A stretch of DNA of 64,000 nucleotides from positions 1-64,000 of the forward strand of contig CAHJWN010000008.1 in the NCBI GenBank assembly GCA_903642265.1, read 5' to 3'. The stretch's first letter is position 1. Each line of letters begins with the position of its first letter. The notes beneath the pieces are model-generated. The model was not told the DNA's origin, did not search any database, and worked only from the letters and a program-made list of their open reading frames with translations. This DNA comes from Acidobacteriaceae bacterium. Its GTDB lineage: Bacteria; Acidobacteriota; Terriglobia; Terriglobales; Acidobacteriaceae. Shown one piece after another: positions 732 through 63,990 of this stretch. A program made the translations under genes and the position numbers.

Positions 732-1184
732 ATGAGCAAAGCCGGGAAAAAGCCTATTGGGATTATTGTTGCCAGCGTCATTATCCTGGCGACCGTCGCT
801 TACCTAGCCGTCACGTCCATTGGCGCGACAAAGAGCTACTACGTCACAATCACCGAACTGCAAGGAATGGGCGATAAGGTCTACACGCGGCATCTGCGCG
901 TGGCGGGGAATGTGGCTCCGGGCAGCATCAAGCGGGTAGGCACCAATGCGAGCTTTCAATTGATCGAGCAGGGCAAGATGCTGCAGGTAGCGTACCAGGG
1001 ATCGGAGCCGCCGCCGGATACGTTCAAGGACGATGCACAGGCGCTCGCGGTTGGCACGTATGGGCGTGATGGCGTATTTCATGCGACTCAGTTGCAGGCA
1101 AAATGCGCCTCGAAGTACGCTCCGGCCGATACGAAGCCGGGGGCTGCGCCGAAGACTACCGCTGCGGTTTTGCCGGGACTTTAA
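732..1184 (+). CDS. ccmE: CcmE, haem chaperone of cytochrome c maturation, Cys-type (System I*)
   Basis: 150 aa. One N-terminal membrane anchor (about residues 8-30) is followed by a periplasmic OB-fold. CcmE takes haem from CcmC/CcmAB and passes it to the apocytochrome ligase. The family block FQLIEQGKMLQVAYQGSEPPDTF-like region and the C-terminal AKCASKYAP motif are visible. In classical CcmE the haem-binding residue is His in HxxxY; here it is Cys125 in CASKY (Tyr129). That is the CxxxY type known from Desulfovibrio-like bacteria and archaea. The longer frame opening at 498 has no family similarity before 732, so the ATG at 732 is chosen. ccmABCD lie about 2.3 kb downstream, beyond an unrelated peptidase. 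Confidence 0.9.
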   Translation: MSKAGKKPIGIIVASVIILATVAYLAVTSIGATKSYYVTITELQGMGDKVYTRHLRVAGNVAPGSIKRVGTNASFQLIEQGKMLQVAYQGSEPPPDTFKDDAQALAVGTYGRDGVFHATQLQAKCASKYAPADTKPGAAPKTTAAVLPGL

Positions 1185-56979: not shown

Positions 56980-59900
56980 ATGAATGATCAAGTTTTTTTC
57001 GACCCGCAGAAAAAACGCTGGAAGCGCCTCCGTCGCATTTTCGACGTCCTGGCCTTGCTTGGTCTGATTGTTGGTGTCGTGTTTATCATCGGCCTCCTGC
57101 GCATCAAGCCGATGAAAGAGTTGCTGCTCCCTTCACAAACCCACAACTTCCGCGCTCTCAGCACACCGCCCGTCCTGAAGACGCCGCAAAAGCTTCGCCG
57201 CGCTGCGCATCGCAAAACAGATCGTGCCCCCTCGGACATTCCGCTGAACTCCGGCGAAGGCCTGCGCGCCGCCTTCTATGTTGAGTGGGACCCCTCCAGC
57301 TACTCCTCGCTCAAAGATCACATTAAGCAGATCGACCTCCTCTTTCCGGAGTGGCTGCACATCGTCTCCTCAGACGGAAACCTCACCGGCTACAGCGTAG
57401 ACAACCGGCCCTTCGCCGTTGTTGACCGTTCGGGCGTCCACGGTGTCGACCGGGAAAACAAGGTAGCTCGCGTCATCTCCGACGCCCATGAAGACACCGA
57501 GATCTTCCCGCTCGTCAGCAACTTCGATCCTGTCTCCGGGGATTACAACCTGGCTGTTGCGGACTTCTTGAAAAGTCCGGATGCTCGTGCCAACTTCATC
57601 AAGCAGGCCGACCTCTTCCTCGCAAAAAACCCCAACTATCATGGCCTAACCCTGAACTTCCGAAGCGTCGCCGCAGACGCCGAGCCCGGTTACCAGGCCC
57701 TCCTCGCAGCCCTATACGCAGACTTTCACGCCTCCGGACGCAATCTGCGTGTCTACGTCAACACCCAGACCGACGACATGGACTTCGACCTGAAGTTCAT
57801 GGCCGACCACTCTGACGGTCTTATCCTCATGAACTACGATGAGCACCAGACTGACTCTGAGCCGGGTGCTATCGCGTCCGAGGACTGGTTCGTCGATAAT
57901 CTCAAGAACCTTCTGAAGTTTGTTCCGAAAGAGAAGATCATCTGCTCAATCGGCAGTTATGGGTACGATTGGTCATTGCCGCTGCCTCCAGCAGCCGATC
58001 CCAAGGCAAAACGCCTGAGCACCTCAGCCAGGCCCGTTCCCGCAAAGGCGCTCAGTGCGCAGGAGATGTCTACCCAGGAAGCCTGGCAGGCAGCTTCCGA
58101 CTCCGAGGCCTCGGTTGAGCTCGATCACGACACCCTCAACGCCCATTTCGCCTACGATGACGAAGACGCTCATATTCGTCACCAGATCTGGTTCCTCGAT
58201 GCCGTCACTGTCCTGAACCAGATGCGCGACGCCCGTGCCCTTGGGATCTCCACCGTCGCCCTCTGGCGGCTTGGATCGGAGGACGGCTCACTCTGGAAGA
58301 TCTGGGATGCACCCATCAAGGTCGATCCTGTGAGCGCTCTCGCGAAGGTCGACCCCGGCTACGATGTCGACAATGAGGGTGAAGGTGACATCATGCGTGT
58401 CACCAAGAAGCCTGTCTCCGGCGAGCGCCAGACCACGCTCGACGACGACGACACCATCGACCCTCAATATCGCAACATCGTTACAGAAAAAATGTTGTCC
58501 TATCCCCTGCCCTACACCGTGCAATACGTCGGCTACAGCCCCAGGCAGGTCTCTCTTTCCTTCGACGATGGTCCCGATCCTGAGTGGACCCCGAAGATCC
58601 TCGACGTTCTCAAGAAATACGGAGTGGTTGGTACCTTCTTCCTGATCGGTGACGAGGCCCAGGAAAACGTCGGCATCATGCGTCGTATCTACCGCGAAGG
58701 TCACGAGATCGGCAATCATACCTATACCCATCCAGACATCAGCAGCATCTCGATCCGGCAAGTCGAACTGGAGCTGGCCCTAACGCAACGGCTCTTTGCC
58801 TCTAAACTTGGCGTCAATCCCGTCTTCTTCCGGCCGCCTTACTCGATCGACCAGGAACCCGACACGAACGACCAGGCCGCGCCCGTCGAGACTATTCAGA
58901 ACAGGGGATACGTCGTCGTTGGCAACAAAATTGACACTGACGATTGGGACGAGCACCCCCGTAAGTCGCCTGAGGAGATTACTGAGAGTGTTCTGAAGCA
59001 GCTCGAAGGTATGAAAACTCAAGCCTGGATGCGCGGCTCGGTCATCCTTCTTCACGACGGCGGCGGCGACCGCTCCCCTACCGTGGCCGCGCTGCCACTC
59101 CTTATCGAGACTCTCCGCGCCCGCGGTTACCAGATCGTTCCCGTTTCACAACTCGTCGGCCAGACTCGCGAACAGGTCATGCCGCCGCTCACCGGATGGC
59201 GTCAGCATCTGCCCGCCTTCGTCGACTCGGTGGCCTTCTTCTTCATCTCACTCTTCAATCACTTCATCATCTTCGTATTTTTCGTCGGCGACATCCTGAT
59301 GAGCGCGCGCCTCATCATCATCGGCCTCTTCGCTGTCATTGATCGACTTCGTAAACGCAAGGACTTCTCCACGCCTGATTACACACCGCGCGTCGCCGTT
59401 CTCATCCCTGCCTACAACGAGGAAAAGGTAATTGTTCGCACCATCCGATCCGTGATGATGTCGAACTACAAGAACATGCACATCATCGTGATTGATGACG
59501 GATCCAAGGACCGCACCAGCGAAGTAGCCCGCGACGCCTACCCCAAAGACATTGAGTCCGGTCGCCTCACCGTTCTCACCAAGCCCAACGGTGGCAAGGC
59601 TGACGCCCTTAACTATGCTCTCGACTATGTAGACGAAGACATCTACATTGGCATCGATGCCGACGGCGTCATCGCTCACGATGCTATTACCCGGCTCGTC
59701 CCTCACTTTGCCAATCCGAAGATCGGCGCTGTCGCCGGCAATGCGAAGGTCGGCAATCGCGTGAATCTATGGACGCGGTGGCAGGCCCTCGAATACATCA
59801 CCAGCCAGAACTTCGAACGCCGTGCTCTGGACCTCTTCGACGTCGTTATGGTCGTGCCCGGAGCCATCGGAGCGTGGCGCACCGCAGCCGTCAAAGCCGG

Positions 59901-60540
59901 CAACGGATATCACACCAACACCGTTGCCGAGGACGCCGACCTTACCATGAACATCCTCGAGCAGGGTTACTCCGTCATCTACGAAGACCAGGCGCTTGCC
60001 TTCACCGAGGCCCCCGTCAACGCCGATGGGCTGATGCGTCAACGCTTCCGTTGGTCCTTTGGAATCCTGCAGGCCCTCTACAAACATAAGGGTGCAATCC
60101 AAAAGCATCGTGCCATGGGCCTCTTCGCCCTTCCGAACATCCTGATCTTCCAGATTTTGTTGCCGCTTGTCTCGCCGCTGATTGACCTGATGTTCGTCGT
60201 AGGAGTCTTCCACTACATCCTCGACCGCTACTATCATCCTGACTCTGCCTCTACTGCCAGCTTTTATAAGCTCATCGCCTTCTTTCTCAGTTTCCTGATG
60301 ATTGACTTTGTTGCCTCGGCACTCGCCTTCACCCTCGAGCGCAAGCACCCCGCCAGTAAGGGCGACAGCTGGCTGCTCTTTCACATTTGGATCCAGCGCT
60401 TTACCTACCGACAGGTGTTCTCTGTTGTTCTTCTCAAAACGGTCAAACGCGCGATTGACGGCAAGCCCTTCAACTGGGACAAACTCGACCGCACTGCCAA
60501 GATGTCAGCAGCGACCGAAAAACTCACTGCCGGCGACTGA
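56980..60540 (+). CDS. Three-domain exopolysaccharide enzyme: GH18-like, NodB deacetylase, GT2 synthase
   Basis: 1186 aa. Cytoplasmic N-terminus and one membrane helix (about 20-42), then a GH18-type barrel (about 92-430), a NodB polysaccharide deacetylase (FDDGPD near 528, GNHTYTHP, RPPYSID, LLHDGGGD), two helices (about 745-790), a processive GT2 domain (LIPAYNEE near 805, VIDDGS, IDADG, AEDAD, QRFRW near 1020) and C-terminal helices. It fuses functions split between PgaB and PgaC in poly-N-acetylglucosamine synthesis. In the barrel, the acids expected in DGxNxDxE are replaced (HGLTLNFRS, residues 221-229), so the GH18 unit looks inactive. Confidence 0.9.
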   Translation: MNDQVFFDPQKKRWKRLRRIFDVLALLGLIVGVVFIIGLLRIKPMKELLLPSQTHNFRALSTPPVLKTPQKLRRAAHRKTDRAPSDIPLNSGEGLRAAFYVEWDPSSYSSLKDHIKQIDLLFPEWLHIVSSDGNLTGYSVDNRPFAVVDRSGVHGVDRENKVARVISDAHEDTEIFPLVSNFDPVSGDYNLAVADFLKSPDARANFIKQADLFLAKNPNYHGLTLNFRSVAADAEPGYQALLAALYADFHASGRNLRVYVNTQTDDMDFDLKFMADHSDGLILMNYDEHQTDSEPGAIASEDWFVDNLKNLLKFVPKEKIICSIGSYGYDWSLPLPPAADPKAKRLSTSARPVPAKALSAQEMSTQEAWQAASDSEASVELDHDTLNAHFAYDDEDAHIRHQIWFLDAVTVLNQMRDARALGISTVALWRLGSEDGSLWKIWDAPIKVDPVSALAKVDPGYDVDNEGEGDIMRVTKKPVSGERQTTLDDDDTIDPQYRNIVTEKMLSYPLPYTVQYVGYSPRQVSLSFDDGPDPEWTPKILDVLKKYGVVGTFFLIGDEAQENVGIMRRIYREGHEIGNHTYTHPDISSISIRQVELELALTQRLFASKLGVNPVFFRPPYSIDQEPDTNDQAAPVETIQNRGYVVVGNKIDTDDWDEHPRKSPEEITESVLKQLEGMKTQAWMRGSVILLHDGGGDRSPTVAALPLLIETLRARGYQIVPVSQLVGQTREQVMPPLTGWRQHLPAFVDSVAFFFISLFNHFIIFVFFVGDILMSARLIIIGLFAVIDRLRKRKDFSTPDYTPRVAVLIPAYNEEKVIVRTIRSVMMSNYKNMHIIVIDDGSKDRTSEVARDAYPKDIESGRLTVLTKPNGGKADALNYALDYVDEDIYIGIDADGVIAHDAITRLVPHFANPKIGAVAGNAKVGNRVNLWTRWQALEYITSQNFERRALDLFDVVMVVPGAIGAWRTAAVKAGNGYHTNTVAEDADLTMNILEQGYSVIYEDQALAFTEAPVNADGLMRQRFRWSFGILQALYKHKGAIQKHRAMGLFALPNILIFQILLPLVSPLIDLMFVVGVFHYILDRYYHPDSASTASFYKLIAFFLSFLMIDFVASALAFTLERKHPASKGDSWLLFHIWIQRFTYRQVFSVVLLKTVKRAIDGKPFNWDKLDRTAKMSAATEKLTAGD

Positions 60541-60754
60541 CGCAACACATACCTGCACACCACAGGTCAGTGCGCCTTCGCAAGTCGTTCGAACGTTGCG
60601 AAGAAGTCTCTCAATTGTCATCCCGGTAATCTGTTCACCTGCCGTCGCCACTTACCTGCTAATTGCCAGGTCAGCAACTCGAAGCCGCAGCTCGTAACCA
60701 GGCTGAGGTACGATCTGAGTGCGTTTCTACACAGAGAATCAATCAGGACTGTCC

Positions 60755-61195
60755 ATGTCTCCGCTCGTCGCCTTCGCATTCCCGATCAATGTTCCCAGCA
60801 TCTCTCCCTACACCAGCCTCTTCGCATTCCTCGTCGGCCTGCCCACTCTGGTCGGCACCTACTACCAGACCTGGAAAACTCGCCAGGAGAGCAAAGCCGC
60901 GCGACAAGGCCTGGTTTACAGCGAAAACTGTTTGGAATTCGTGCTTCATGACGGCACCACCATCAACCTTGTTCCTTTGGAAACACTGCACACCCTGCCG
61001 AAATCCGGCGATGTCGTTCTACTTCCAGGCAATGCCGACTCAGATGCAGCAGATCCGAAACACGGGGCCTATCGCGTAAGTCGCGTCGAGTTCATATATT
61101 CCCGCGTTGAAAACCGGTTCGCCCAGTCCGGCCAGGCTCGCCTCGCCAAAGCGGTCGCTCACGTCGATGCCGTCAGCGCACTGCCTTTCAACTAG
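60755..61195 (+). CDS. Hypothetical protein with N-terminal membrane segment, 146 aa
   Basis: Start at 60755 (MSPLVAFAF) is preferred to the longer frame because AGGA lies at a suitable distance. One hydrophobic stretch (about residues 17-33), then a soluble domain with CLEFVLHDGTTINLVPLETLH and LPKSGDVVLLPG. No family recognised. The next gene is a lipase on the same strand, 110 bases on; a link is possible but unproven. Confidence 0.6.
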   Translation: MSPLVAFAFPINVPSISPYTSLFAFLVGLPTLVGTYYQTWKTRQESKAARQGLVYSENCLEFVLHDGTTINLVPLETLHTLPKSGDVVLLPGNADSDAADPKHGAYRVSRVEFIYSRVENRFAQSGQARLAKAVAHVDAVSALPFN

Positions 61196-61305: not shown

Positions 61306-62157
61306 GTGAATGTTCAACTAGCCATCAACGCCGGTCTGGCCGTCCAATTCGTTTACGACCGATGTGAGTCAGCAGGCGCGCCCATCGACCTCACCGGCGA
61401 AATCTTTCCGATCGGCGGTACCTCATATCGGGTGACGAATACCCTCTTCGCCAACGATTTGGCGACCGGCATCTCCGGACGATTTCAGGAGTTCAACACC
61501 ATCGGCGTCATCGCGGGAAATACCTTGGATCCAACAGACATCTACATCGCCATCCGCGGCACCTCGAATGTTTGGGAGTGGATCCAGGATTGCAAATTCC
61601 TCCCAAAACCTTTCCCGCGCGTTCCTGGCAGCGGATACACCGAGGACGGCTTTACCGATATGTATCTCTCCATGTCCATGACTCCTAATCCGCATGCTGG
61701 TAGCTTCATTGACGACCTCTACGCACTCTTCCCGCCGAATGCAAAGGTCACCGTAGCTGGCCACAGCCTCGGTGCTTCGCTCGCTACGCTTCTTGCCTTT
61801 GACCTGGCCGCCAACTCCCCATTCCGGGACACTTCTGCGGTCTCCCTCTACACCCTTGCCAGTCCCCGAGTTGGCGATCTTAGCTTCATGCAGCTCTTCA
61901 ATCATGTCGTCGGCAACGCCTACCGCATCCACAACCGTCTCGACATCGTCACCAAGACCCCGCCACCCCTGCTTTACTTCCATGTCGGCGACGAGACCGA
62001 GCTCATCCCCAGCAAAGACATGAAGTTCGACCTCCTCTGCGAACATCACCTGCCAAACTATCTCAACATGCTCGCCAGCGTCCTGGACCTTCCTGGCTAC
62101 CCCATCTCTCCCGGATGTTCGAGGACTCCTCCCGCTGTGGCCCAGGAAATCACCTAA
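61306..62157 (+). CDS. Class 3 lipase family protein
   Basis: 283 aa alpha/beta hydrolase of the Lipase_3 family. The oxyanion region is YIAIRGTSN, the nucleophile Ser is in VAGHSLGASLA, the Asp in HNRLDIV and the His probably in CEHHLPNYL. It hydrolyses acylglycerols or related esters. No signal peptide is seen, so it is cytosolic unless exported otherwise. GTG start at 61306 with GGAGAG five bases upstream. Two palindromic repeat copies follow directly after it. Confidence 0.87.
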   Translation: MNVQLAINAGLAVQFVYDRCESAGAPIDLTGEIFPIGGTSYRVTNTLFANDLATGISGRFQEFNTIGVIAGNTLDPTDIYIAIRGTSNVWEWIQDCKFLPKPFPRVPGSGYTEDGFTDMYLSMSMTPNPHAGSFIDDLYALFPPNAKVTVAGHSLGASLATLLAFDLAANSPFRDTSAVSLYTLASPRVGDLSFMQLFNHVVGNAYRIHNRLDIVTKTPPPLLYFHVGDETELIPSKDMKFDLLCEHHLPNYLNMLASVLDLPGYPISPGCSRTPPAVAQEIT

Positions 62158-62246: not shown

Positions 62247-62316
62247 CACAAGTCCGGGTGCCCCATCTTCGCGCAGCCCTACCGCGCTAAAGGTGGGCAT
62301 TTGTGCAAAGCACGAA
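62247..62316. repeat. Tandem intergenic repeat unit 2
   Basis: Repeats unit 1 with an offset of 88 bases, nearly identical (one extra A before GGTGGGCAT and a few substitutions). It lies between the lipase gene and rocA and overlaps the spurious upstream extension of the rocA frame. Confidence 0.8.
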
Positions 62317-62367
62317 CCGCACTCCTCGCCCTACACGCTTCCCCCTAAGCGCGTAAAATCGAACGCG

Positions 62368-63990
62368 ATGGCAACCCTCACAATCACCCCCGCTCTTGCG
62401 CCCTTCACCACCGAACTCTTCGTGGATTTCACCGCCTCCGCCAACAAGCGTGCCATGGAAGCCGCCCTGGCGCAGGTAGCCACCGAACTCGGCCGTGAAT
62501 ATGACCTCGTCATCGGCGGCAAGCGCATCCGCACCGAAGGCAAGATCATCTCGACCAACCCAGCAAACCCGTCGCAGATCGTCGGGACCCACCAGCGTGC
62601 GGCAGCCGAACACGCAGAGACTGCCATGCTTGCCGCTCAGCAAGCTTTCGCGAAGTGGTCCCGAACTCCGCTTGCTGACCGCGTCGACCTCCTCCTGCGC
62701 GCCGCTGCACTCATCCGTGAACGTAAGTTCCTCTTTTGCGCCTGGCTCACCTATGAAGTGGGCAAGAACTGGGCTGAGGCGGACGCCGACGTGGCCGAGT
62801 GCATCGACTTCCTCGAGTTCTACGCCCGCGAAGCCCTCCGCCTCGATACGGCCACCACACCGATTCAATACCCTGGCGAGCGAAATCTTCTTCGCTACAT
62901 CCCACTGGGCGTCGGCGCTGTCATTCCGCCCTGGAATTTCCCCTTCGCGATCATGGCCGGCATGACCACTGCCGCCATTGTCACCGGGAATACGGTGATC
63001 CTTAAACCTTCAGTAGACGCTTCAACTATTGCAGCTATCTTCTTCAATCTGCTTGAGGAAGTTGGACTTCCTGACGGTGTAGTGAATTTCTGCCCGGGAG
63101 AAGGCCCTGAGTTTGGTTCCGAGATCGTGGCGAACCCGAAGACACGTTTCATTGCCTTTACGGGTTCCAAAAAGGTTGGTCTTGAGATCCACGAATCCGC
63201 TGCAAAGACCCGGCCGGGACAGATCTGGATCAAGCGCACTGTTCTCGAGATGGGTGGCAAAGACTCAATCATCGTCGACCGCGACTGCGATCTGGATGCC
63301 GCCATCGAAGGCGTGACCTCCTCAGCATTCGGCTTCAACGGCCAGAAGTGCTCCGCCTGCTCTCGCGCCATCGTTGATGCGGAGATCTATGACATCTTCT
63401 GCGATCGAATTACCGAGCGTGTTGCCGCGATCAGGCAGGGCGATCCCGTCAAGAACTTCTACGCCGGTCCTGTCATTAACGATATCGCTGTAAAACGCAT
63501 TCTCGACTACATTGAAATCGGCAAATCTCAAGGTCGTCTCCTTACCGGCGGCACGTTCGTAGATACCCCAGAAAAAGGCCGCTACATCGCCCCCACCGTC
63601 TTCGCAGACGTCGCCCCCATGGCCCGCATCGCGCAGGAAGAGATCTTTGGACCCGTCCTGGCCATCATCAAGTCATCAAGCTTTGAAGACGCTCTCGCTA
63701 TAGCCAATAACACCGAATATGGCCTGACCGGCGCCATCTACTCCGATTCACGCGACAATCTCGACCGTGCGCGCGAGGAGTTTCACGTGGGCAATCTGTA
63801 CCTCAACCGCAAATGCACAGGCGCCATGGTCGCCGCGCACCCTTTTGGCGGCTTCAACATGTCCGGCACAGACTCCAAGGCAGGCGGCCCCGATTACCTG
63901 CTGCTCTTCACCCAGGCCAAATCAATTGCCGAGAAGGTGACCCACGTCAGCGCCTTGCTGGATGAGCAGGAAGATCGAATGGGCATCTGA
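62368..63990 (+). CDS. rocA: L-glutamate gamma-semialdehyde dehydrogenase (1-pyrroline-5-carboxylate dehydrogenase)
   Basis: 540 aa from ATG 62368; the upstream in-frame part lies in a repeat. ALDH superfamily of the RocA/PutA type: IPPWNFPFAI, GSKKVGLEI, catalytic Glu in VLEMGGKDS and Cys in FGFNGQKCSACSR, and C-terminal PFGGFNMSGTDSKAGG. It oxidises glutamate semialdehyde from proline or arginine to glutamate with NAD. A proline dehydrogenase gene is not in the window but could lie downstream. Confidence 0.93.
   Translation: MATLTITPALAPFTTELFVDFTASANKRAMEAALAQVATELGREYDLVIGGKRIRTEGKIISTNPANPSQIVGTHQRAAAEHAETAMLAAQQAFAKWSRTPLADRVDLLLRAAALIRERKFLFCAWLTYEVGKNWAEADADVAECIDFLEFYAREALRLDTATTPIQYPGERNLLRYIPLGVGAVIPPWNFPFAIMAGMTTAAIVTGNTVILKPSVDASTIAAIFFNLLEEVGLPDGVVNFCPGEGPEFGSEIVANPKTRFIAFTGSKKVGLEIHESAAKTRPGQIWIKRTVLEMGGKDSIIVDRDCDLDAAIEGVTSSAFGFNGQKCSACSRAIVDAEIYDIFCDRITERVAAIRQGDPVKNFYAGPVINDIAVKRILDYIEIGKSQGRLLTGGTFVDTPEKGRYIAPTVFADVAPMARIAQEEIFGPVLAIIKSSSFEDALAIANNTEYGLTGAIYSDSRDNLDRAREEFHVGNLYLNRKCTGAMVAAHPFGGFNMSGTDSKAGGPDYLLLFTQAKSIAEKVTHVSALLDEQEDRMGI

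Follow-up and report, generated by a model that had tools for sequence, protein, structure and literature searches.

Repeated loss of the catalytic pair in the GH18-like barrel of a predicted single-chain polysaccharide synthase-deacetylase of Acidobacteriaceae

Introduction

MatB of Streptomyces (SCO2962/SLI_3306) is described, in the available passages of two papers, as a single chain with an extracellular CE4 domain, an intracellular GT2 domain and one predicted helix (PMC4391728, PMC5972031). By the same passages its GT2 domain is nearest to PgaC and its CE4 domain to PgdA, with NodB among the top matches (PMC4391728, PMC5972031), and MatB is needed, together with MatA, for poly-beta-1,6-N-acetylglucosamine (poly-beta-1,6-GlcNAc, PNAG; PMC5972031). 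The GH153 barrel of PgaB hydrolyses with D474 and has no counterpart to the second catalytic residue, according to passages of PMC5933820. Passages of PMC7112194 state that it is unknown what the hydrolase activity of PgaB does biologically, and a figure legend there mentions putative hydrolase fusions at the C-terminus. Here we describe a protein that joins a GH18-like barrel to CE4 and GT2 domains, encoded in a 64,000-nucleotide stretch of DNA from a soil bacterium of the Acidobacteriaceae (GenBank assembly GCA_903642265.1, contig CAHJWN010000008.1, positions 1 to 64,000 of the forward strand; hereafter the window). The family to which it belongs bears on the open question of what purpose a hydrolase serves in an exopolysaccharide machine.

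We found that the two catalytic acids of the barrel are replaced in the window's protein and that the pair has been lost repeatedly among its relatives. The reading we favor is that the protein is a one-chain amino-polysaccharide synthase-deacetylase whose former hydrolase barrel probably only binds or holds the polymer.

Results

Domains of the protein

A preliminary description of the window, made from its letters, had placed GH18-like, NodB and GT2 domains on one chain. This layout was borne out by the open reading frame at 56980-60540, whose ATG start agrees with that of relatives. Pfam matches over cut-off identified the CE4 domain (PF01522, residues 521-623, 2.1e-31; 108.9 bits against 23.1) and the GT2 domain (PF13641, residues 803-1028, 3.1e-30), and the barrel was recognized by phmmer and in structure models. 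The metal-site and catalytic set of CE4 (DD, HxxxH, R, D, H) is complete (D529, D530, H580, H584, R618, D655, H692), as are the DxD, ED and QxxRW motifs of GT2 (D893, D895, D985, Q1021, R1024, W1025). We collected 153 loci of the family, which gave 136 distinct rows after identical proteins were collapsed. Each of these GT2 residues is kept in 136/136 rows, and so are the tested CE4 residues, save D530 (135/136). The best NCBIfam model for the GT2 domain was PgaC/IcaA (TIGR03937), at 176.2 bits, which is under the 422.3 cut-off of that model and does not make the domain a member.

The full-length model (pLDDT, the predicted local distance difference test, 77.8; pTM, the predicted template modelling score, 0.54) has C-terminal hydrophobic helices and one helix, residues 740-790, between CE4 and GT2. 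Its domain packing is unreliable because of the low pTM. Foldseek searches with this model also listed Chlorella virus hyaluronan synthase and the Bc1960 deacetylase. Hydropathy, positive charges and the helix at 740-790 point to a topology in which the N-terminus and GT2 would lie inside and GH18 and CE4 outside. Structure jobs drew on 62 of the 80 named loci.

A GH18 barrel without its catalytic pair

PF00704 was not matched by the window's protein (E up to 1) or by its GH18 domain alone (E up to 10); it does match four of six relatives of three-domain size (L138, L140, L142 and L130, not L143 or L146) and also L052. Using phmmer, we could align the domain to the chitinase 5jh8 (7.9e-16) and to YdhD, 3cz8 (9.2e-16). 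A model of residues 85-520 (pLDDT 92.3, pTM 0.90) is a GH18 barrel, and it matches 5jh8 with a VIA Z of 33.2 (root-mean-square deviation 2.3, 307 aligned; Foldseek template modelling score 0.85 on the target) and chi-lectins with Z about 30.

HMMER sets GGVTIDFE of YdhD against HGLTLNFR of the window's protein (residues 221-228), and in the full-length model this motif sits at the C-terminal end of strand 222-226. We take N226 and R228 to occupy the positions of the Asp and Glu of the catalytic DxE after strand beta-4, because of this alignment and the strand-end place. The window's barrel therefore lacks the DxE that defines an active GH18 and is not filed as one. The preliminary description had stated that the GH18 catalytic acids are replaced and had asked for a structure model of the active site; both the YdhD alignment and the place of the motif at the end of its strand in the full-length model agree with it. 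Y286, D287, H289 and W429 remain, and we take Y286, D287 and W429 to be usual GH18 site positions. The structures matched by the barrel include GH18 Glu-to-Gln mutants holding chitin oligomers (titles of 1ehn, 3alg and 4mnl).

The pair is ancestral and has been lost repeatedly

Among the Terriglobia genomes sampled, 144 of 299 carry the protein (E up to 1e-100), and so do 61 of 62 genomes of the genus, the window's own genome included. That genome is placed with class Terriglobia, and its nearest named match is Granulicella aggregans, at 78% identity. Homologues also occur on plasmids of Pseudomonadota, Deinococcota and Bacteroidota, and in 20 plasmid records a single place spans 80% or more of the protein.

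The motif region is present in 131 of the 136 distinct rows; the other five (L110, L111, L115, L146, L147) have a gap there, and L146 and L147 match the window's protein only over CE4-GT2. Counting the window, Glu is kept in 122/131 rows, Asp in 126/131 and both in 121/131. A barrel that is dead throughout the family is contradicted by the first of these counts. Because both acids are kept in so many rows, the ancestral design looks like a synthase, a deacetylase and a hydrolase together. Ten rows lack one or both acids: the window itself, five rows of Acidobacteriaceae with Q, L159 (D-to-H) and three rows from Rhodobacterales. The replacements differ among losses (NR, DQ, NQ, GQ and HE). A further 80 gene fragments, which overlap partly with genomes of the named loci and so are not 80 independent additions, comprised 76 with D and E and four with Q. 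Among more distant homologues, Glu is missing in 6/6 Rhodobacterales plasmid copies examined (of nine listed plasmid matches) and is kept in seven listed rows, which come from Sphingomonadaceae (L138, L139, L141, L251, L255), Prevotella (L142) and Deinococcus (L140). The alignment of far plasmid relatives is less sure, because they are only 30-37% identical to the window's protein.

To keep the barrel from influencing the trees, we built them from the CE4 and GT2 columns alone. A quick tree of 99 rows requires three changes to account for loss of the pair. A more careful tree of 58 rows included four added lost copies and three added outgroups, with rows of at most 63% identity and twelve named rows left out. 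On this tree the pair needs four changes, which are forced by starred branches and stay at four to four over the bootstrap range, and loss of Glu alone needs three. The events are the window itself; a clade of eight Q-bearing rows that includes Bryocella elongata DSM 22489 (support 100/100); G318/L246 (Q); and L159 (D-to-H only). The careful tree thus gives a minimum of four losses of the pair within Acidobacteriaceae, and the loss is derived and recurrent. All eight sampled rows of the Q clade keep Q, and six of the nine Q-bearing rows keep D226.

The window's sister is G. aggregans (L009/L148), which has an intact DLE. We had considered placing the window in the Glu-to-Gln clade, with R reached by way of Q, given a shared 'LTL' and a short codon path; this was rejected, since the careful tree puts the window beside the intact G. 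aggregans (100/100). Elsewhere among the Granulicella rows of the tree lies a copy, 71% identical, from a contig labelled Rhodanobacteraceae (L047), probably a mis-binned or mislabelled metagenome-assembled genome.

Rates of change in the three domains

We compared changes unique to the window with changes unique to its intact sister, using seven outgroups (ten had been named; L010, L020 and L022 are not in the collapsed alignment). There were 36-45 such changes in the window's GH18 domain versus 30-37 in the sister's, 9-14 versus 8-13 in GT2, and 14-24 versus 5-10 in CE4. The barrel is not markedly faster than in the intact sister, and CE4 is faster. GH18 identity within five Q rows is 0.696, like the 0.685 within nine intact rows.

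One CE4 position is associated with the state of the barrel. V615, three residues before R618, is found in 9/10 rows without Glu and in 1/96 intact family rows, an association that amounts to only two independent events and is absent from a third. With just three independent pairs, co-change of residues 99 and 615 with loss of Glu did not reach significance (median sign-test p 0.5).

Proposed role of the barrel

In the mechanism that we propose, the cytoplasmic GT2 domain would add N-acetylglucosamine-type sugars from a nucleotide sugar and push the growing chain through the membrane helices, and the outer CE4 domain would strip some acetyl groups. The outermost GH18 barrel, with cutting residues in the ancestor and in most relatives, would here probably bind or hold the emerging polymer, and loss of the cut may give longer or uncut chains. 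Since the window's barrel is evolving about as slowly as that of the intact sister, it has probably been kept as a non-catalytic, polymer-holding part. The suggestion of the preliminary description that the barrel only binds or guides the nascent polymer thus stays plausible for the window's protein, whose barrel is retained without marked acceleration; it does not extend to the system as a whole, in which 121/131 rows are intact. Its further idea, that synthesis, guidance and deacetylation are coupled at one pore, would be one possible arrangement, the packing in the full-length model being uncertain.

Several points weigh against a retained, polymer-holding barrel at the exit of an amino-polysaccharide synthase. 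The window's own allele is known from a single draft genome (94.74% complete, 5.66% contamination, 196 contigs). No finite synonymous divergence (dS) was obtained between the window and G. aggregans; because the window's dS is saturated, constraint on the barrel is expressed as a rate comparison and not as dN/dS. Changes unique to the window's GH18 domain are somewhat more numerous than those of the sister with six of the seven outgroups, and further site residues are gone in some Q-clade rows (D287 in L062 and L248, W429 in L034 and L248). A search of the window's genome for the PgaA exporter gave 16 weak matches, none over the cut-off, in a genome of the completeness given above. Finally, signals of the presumed linkage conflict: GT2 scores best as PgaC (1,6), and most matches of CE4 and GH18 are to enzymes of 1,4-linked substrates.

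Two of these points, the slight excess of GH18 changes and the lost D287 or W429 (two rows each), would also be expected if the barrel were simply decaying, with hydrolysis dispensable and the domain a passive spacer that binds nothing. Losses that are repeated and different from one another are likewise what a dispensable cut would give, as is a possible compensated frameshift in the window's motif (below). However, the excess is small, identity within the Q clade resembles that of intact rows, the sampled clade rows all keep Q, and the window retains Y286, D287, H289 and W429. We therefore consider decay unlikely.

Cutting by other residues, either a GH153-like single-Asp mechanism in the Q clade or another acid in the window, seems a good deal less probable. 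It has a precedent in PgaB, where D474 works alone in the sense given in the Introduction (PMC5933820, passages), and most Q-bearing rows keep D226, but D226 is also gone in the window. E301 occurs in the window alone among 11 lost rows, at a position where Q is usual (95/96 intact family rows); this position is not known to us to take part in catalysis.

The codons of the window at the motif (CTG AAC TTC CGA AGC GTC GCC) differ from those of the intact L011 (CTG GAC TTC GAA GAG ATT CCC) in a manner that may reflect a compensated micro-frameshift beneath R228. In alignments to L011 and L021, one base is inserted and one is missing, about eight bases apart. We compared 54 relatives with 67% identity or more; in 23 of them a shifted frame outscores the true one by 4 or more of the 12 bases that start at residue 228, compared with 8 at the next place in the gene. 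The other 31 show no such excess, and in the best alignment to the sister L009 the gaps lie at other places and in the opposite order. No gaps arise there in the alignments to the Q rows L034 and L052. Other lineages lost Glu by plain Glu-to-Gln changes, and D226N is a change separate from the patch. The evidence for a frameshift is mixed, and a frameshift is a good lead rather than an established cause. That the patch is instead a sequencing or assembly error in a protein that really has Glu is very unlikely: the allele comes from a single draft genome and nowhere else in the gene is the frame-shift signal as strong as at residue 228, but two opposite indel errors some eight bases apart would be needed within the catalytic motif of an otherwise open 1186-codon gene, and the separate D226N, the 31 relatives without a signal, the differently placed gaps of G. 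aggregans and the plain Glu-to-Gln losses elsewhere all speak against it.

Features and neighboring genes

Coordinates of the features of the gene are given in Table 1.

Table 1. Features of the synthase gene, in window coordinates.
Feature	Position	Strand	Basis
Whole gene: GH18-like / CE4 / GT2 single-chain polysaccharide synthase	56980..60540	+	Open reading frame, 1186 residues
N-terminal hydrophobic helix, residues 12-40, positive residues ahead	57013..57099	+	Hydropathy, charges, model
GH18-like (beta/alpha)8 barrel, residues 89-445, presumed to lie outside the cytoplasmic membrane	57244..58314	+	phmmer, models, structure matches
Degenerate GH18 motif HGLTLNFR, residues 221-228, D226N and E228R	57640..57663	+	HMMER alignment, relatives
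Possible compensated frameshift patch in GH18 motif	from about 57661	+	Codon comparison
Linker with short beta segments, residues 446-510	58315..58509	+	Model
CE4/NodB deacetylase, residues 511-731	58510..59172	+	Pfam, kept residues, structure matches
Single long helix, residues 740-790, taken as out-to-in crossing ahead of synthase	59197..59349	+	Hydropathy, model
GT2 synthase, residues 796-1186	59365..60537	+	Pfam, NCBIfam, kept residues, model
Within GT2: D893/D895, D985, QRFRW 1021-1025; C-terminal hydrophobic helices 1044-1081 and 1092-1119			

A divergent membrane protein lies upstream of the synthase gene in 119/152 loci, at a median distance of 111 bases; of the remaining loci, many include little flanking sequence. 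It is apparently multi-spanning and about 460-610 residues long (for example, L009:5166-6554), and presumably resembles a GT39/ArnT-type transferase; one representative had no Pfam match at 0.01. We considered this protein as an operon partner and rejected it: the homologue in the window's genome is on another contig (C73) and not beside the gene. In the window, a response-regulator receiver protein is encoded upstream instead. GHL13 (PF14883), the hydrolase of PgaB, had no match in the protein or in the window's genome, and an E. coli control was positive.

Downstream in the window are a 158-residue open reading frame with no Pfam match at 0.01 (60719-61195), a class 3 lipase (61306-62157) and an open reading frame that resembles an aldehyde dehydrogenase, named by eye (62293-63990), with homologues in 56 loci. 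Among plasmid copies, five from Rhodobacterales whose barrels have no GH18 Glu (L143, L144, L145, L253, L254) are followed directly by a gene annotated with DUF3131, and in L252 the annotation splits the synthase over two reading frames, the stretch containing an internal stop. A Kocuria rosea plasmid carries a CE4-GT2 fusion without a GH18 match (L147:3668-6973), adjoined on the other strand by a separate gene annotated as a chitinase (PF00704 8.1e-05, under the cut-off).

Discussion

Our results describe a family in which close relatives exist with and without cutting residues, so that a cutting role is separable from a binding role. An example of a natural pair is G. aggregans, which is intact, and B. 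elongata DSM 22489, with its Glu-to-Gln change. Going beyond the reading favored above, we tentatively suggest that the built-in hydrolase of a one-chain synthase repeatedly became a polymer clamp without catalytic activity, in effect a bacterial chi-lectin where the chain leaves the enzyme, and that the neighboring CE4 domain was re-tuned. The re-tuning is suggested by the excess of unique CE4 changes and by the V615 pattern. If a clamp of this kind is correct, then the cutting or non-cutting state of the barrel would act as an evolutionary switch that sets polymer length.

The chi-lectins (CHI3L1/YKL-40, Ym1, SPX-40) have a GH18 barrel like that of the window's protein. They have lost the catalytic Glu, keep sugar binding and are non-catalytic; they are secreted animal proteins and not part of a synthase. 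YdhD, SleL/YaaH and the chitinase 5jh8 share the barrel by sequence and fold, but have no synthase domain, and the NFR of the window corresponds to DFE in 5jh8 and YdhD.

In E. coli and Bordetella, a deacetylase, a TIM-barrel hydrolase and a GT2 synthase likewise act on one polymer, as passages of PMC5933820 describe. Unlike the single chain of the window, PgaB and PgaC are separate proteins, the GH153 barrel is C-terminal to CE4, and the PgaA porin and PgaD take part. Passages of PMC7112194 report divergent pgaB/icaB clades in which Gram-negative deacetylase domains are fused to a glycosyltransferase without detected pgaA or pgaD; the main text does not use the term GH18, and these passages do not describe catalytic loss. 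Searches of open-licence literature listed no paper whose title or abstract concerned a GH18-CE4-GT2 chain, a weak negative.

The closest likeness, drawn from descriptions, is to MatB, which has CE4, one predicted crossing and GT2 on one chain, as does the window's protein. Homologues on Streptomyces and Kocuria plasmids align with the window's protein over CE4-GT2. In the passages on it, MatB is described with two domains and no GH18 barrel, its product is identified as PNAG and MatA is also needed; the window's protein adds the barrel. One-chain deacetylase-synthases are thus already known, and what is new here is an added GH18 barrel that has been disabled repeatedly.

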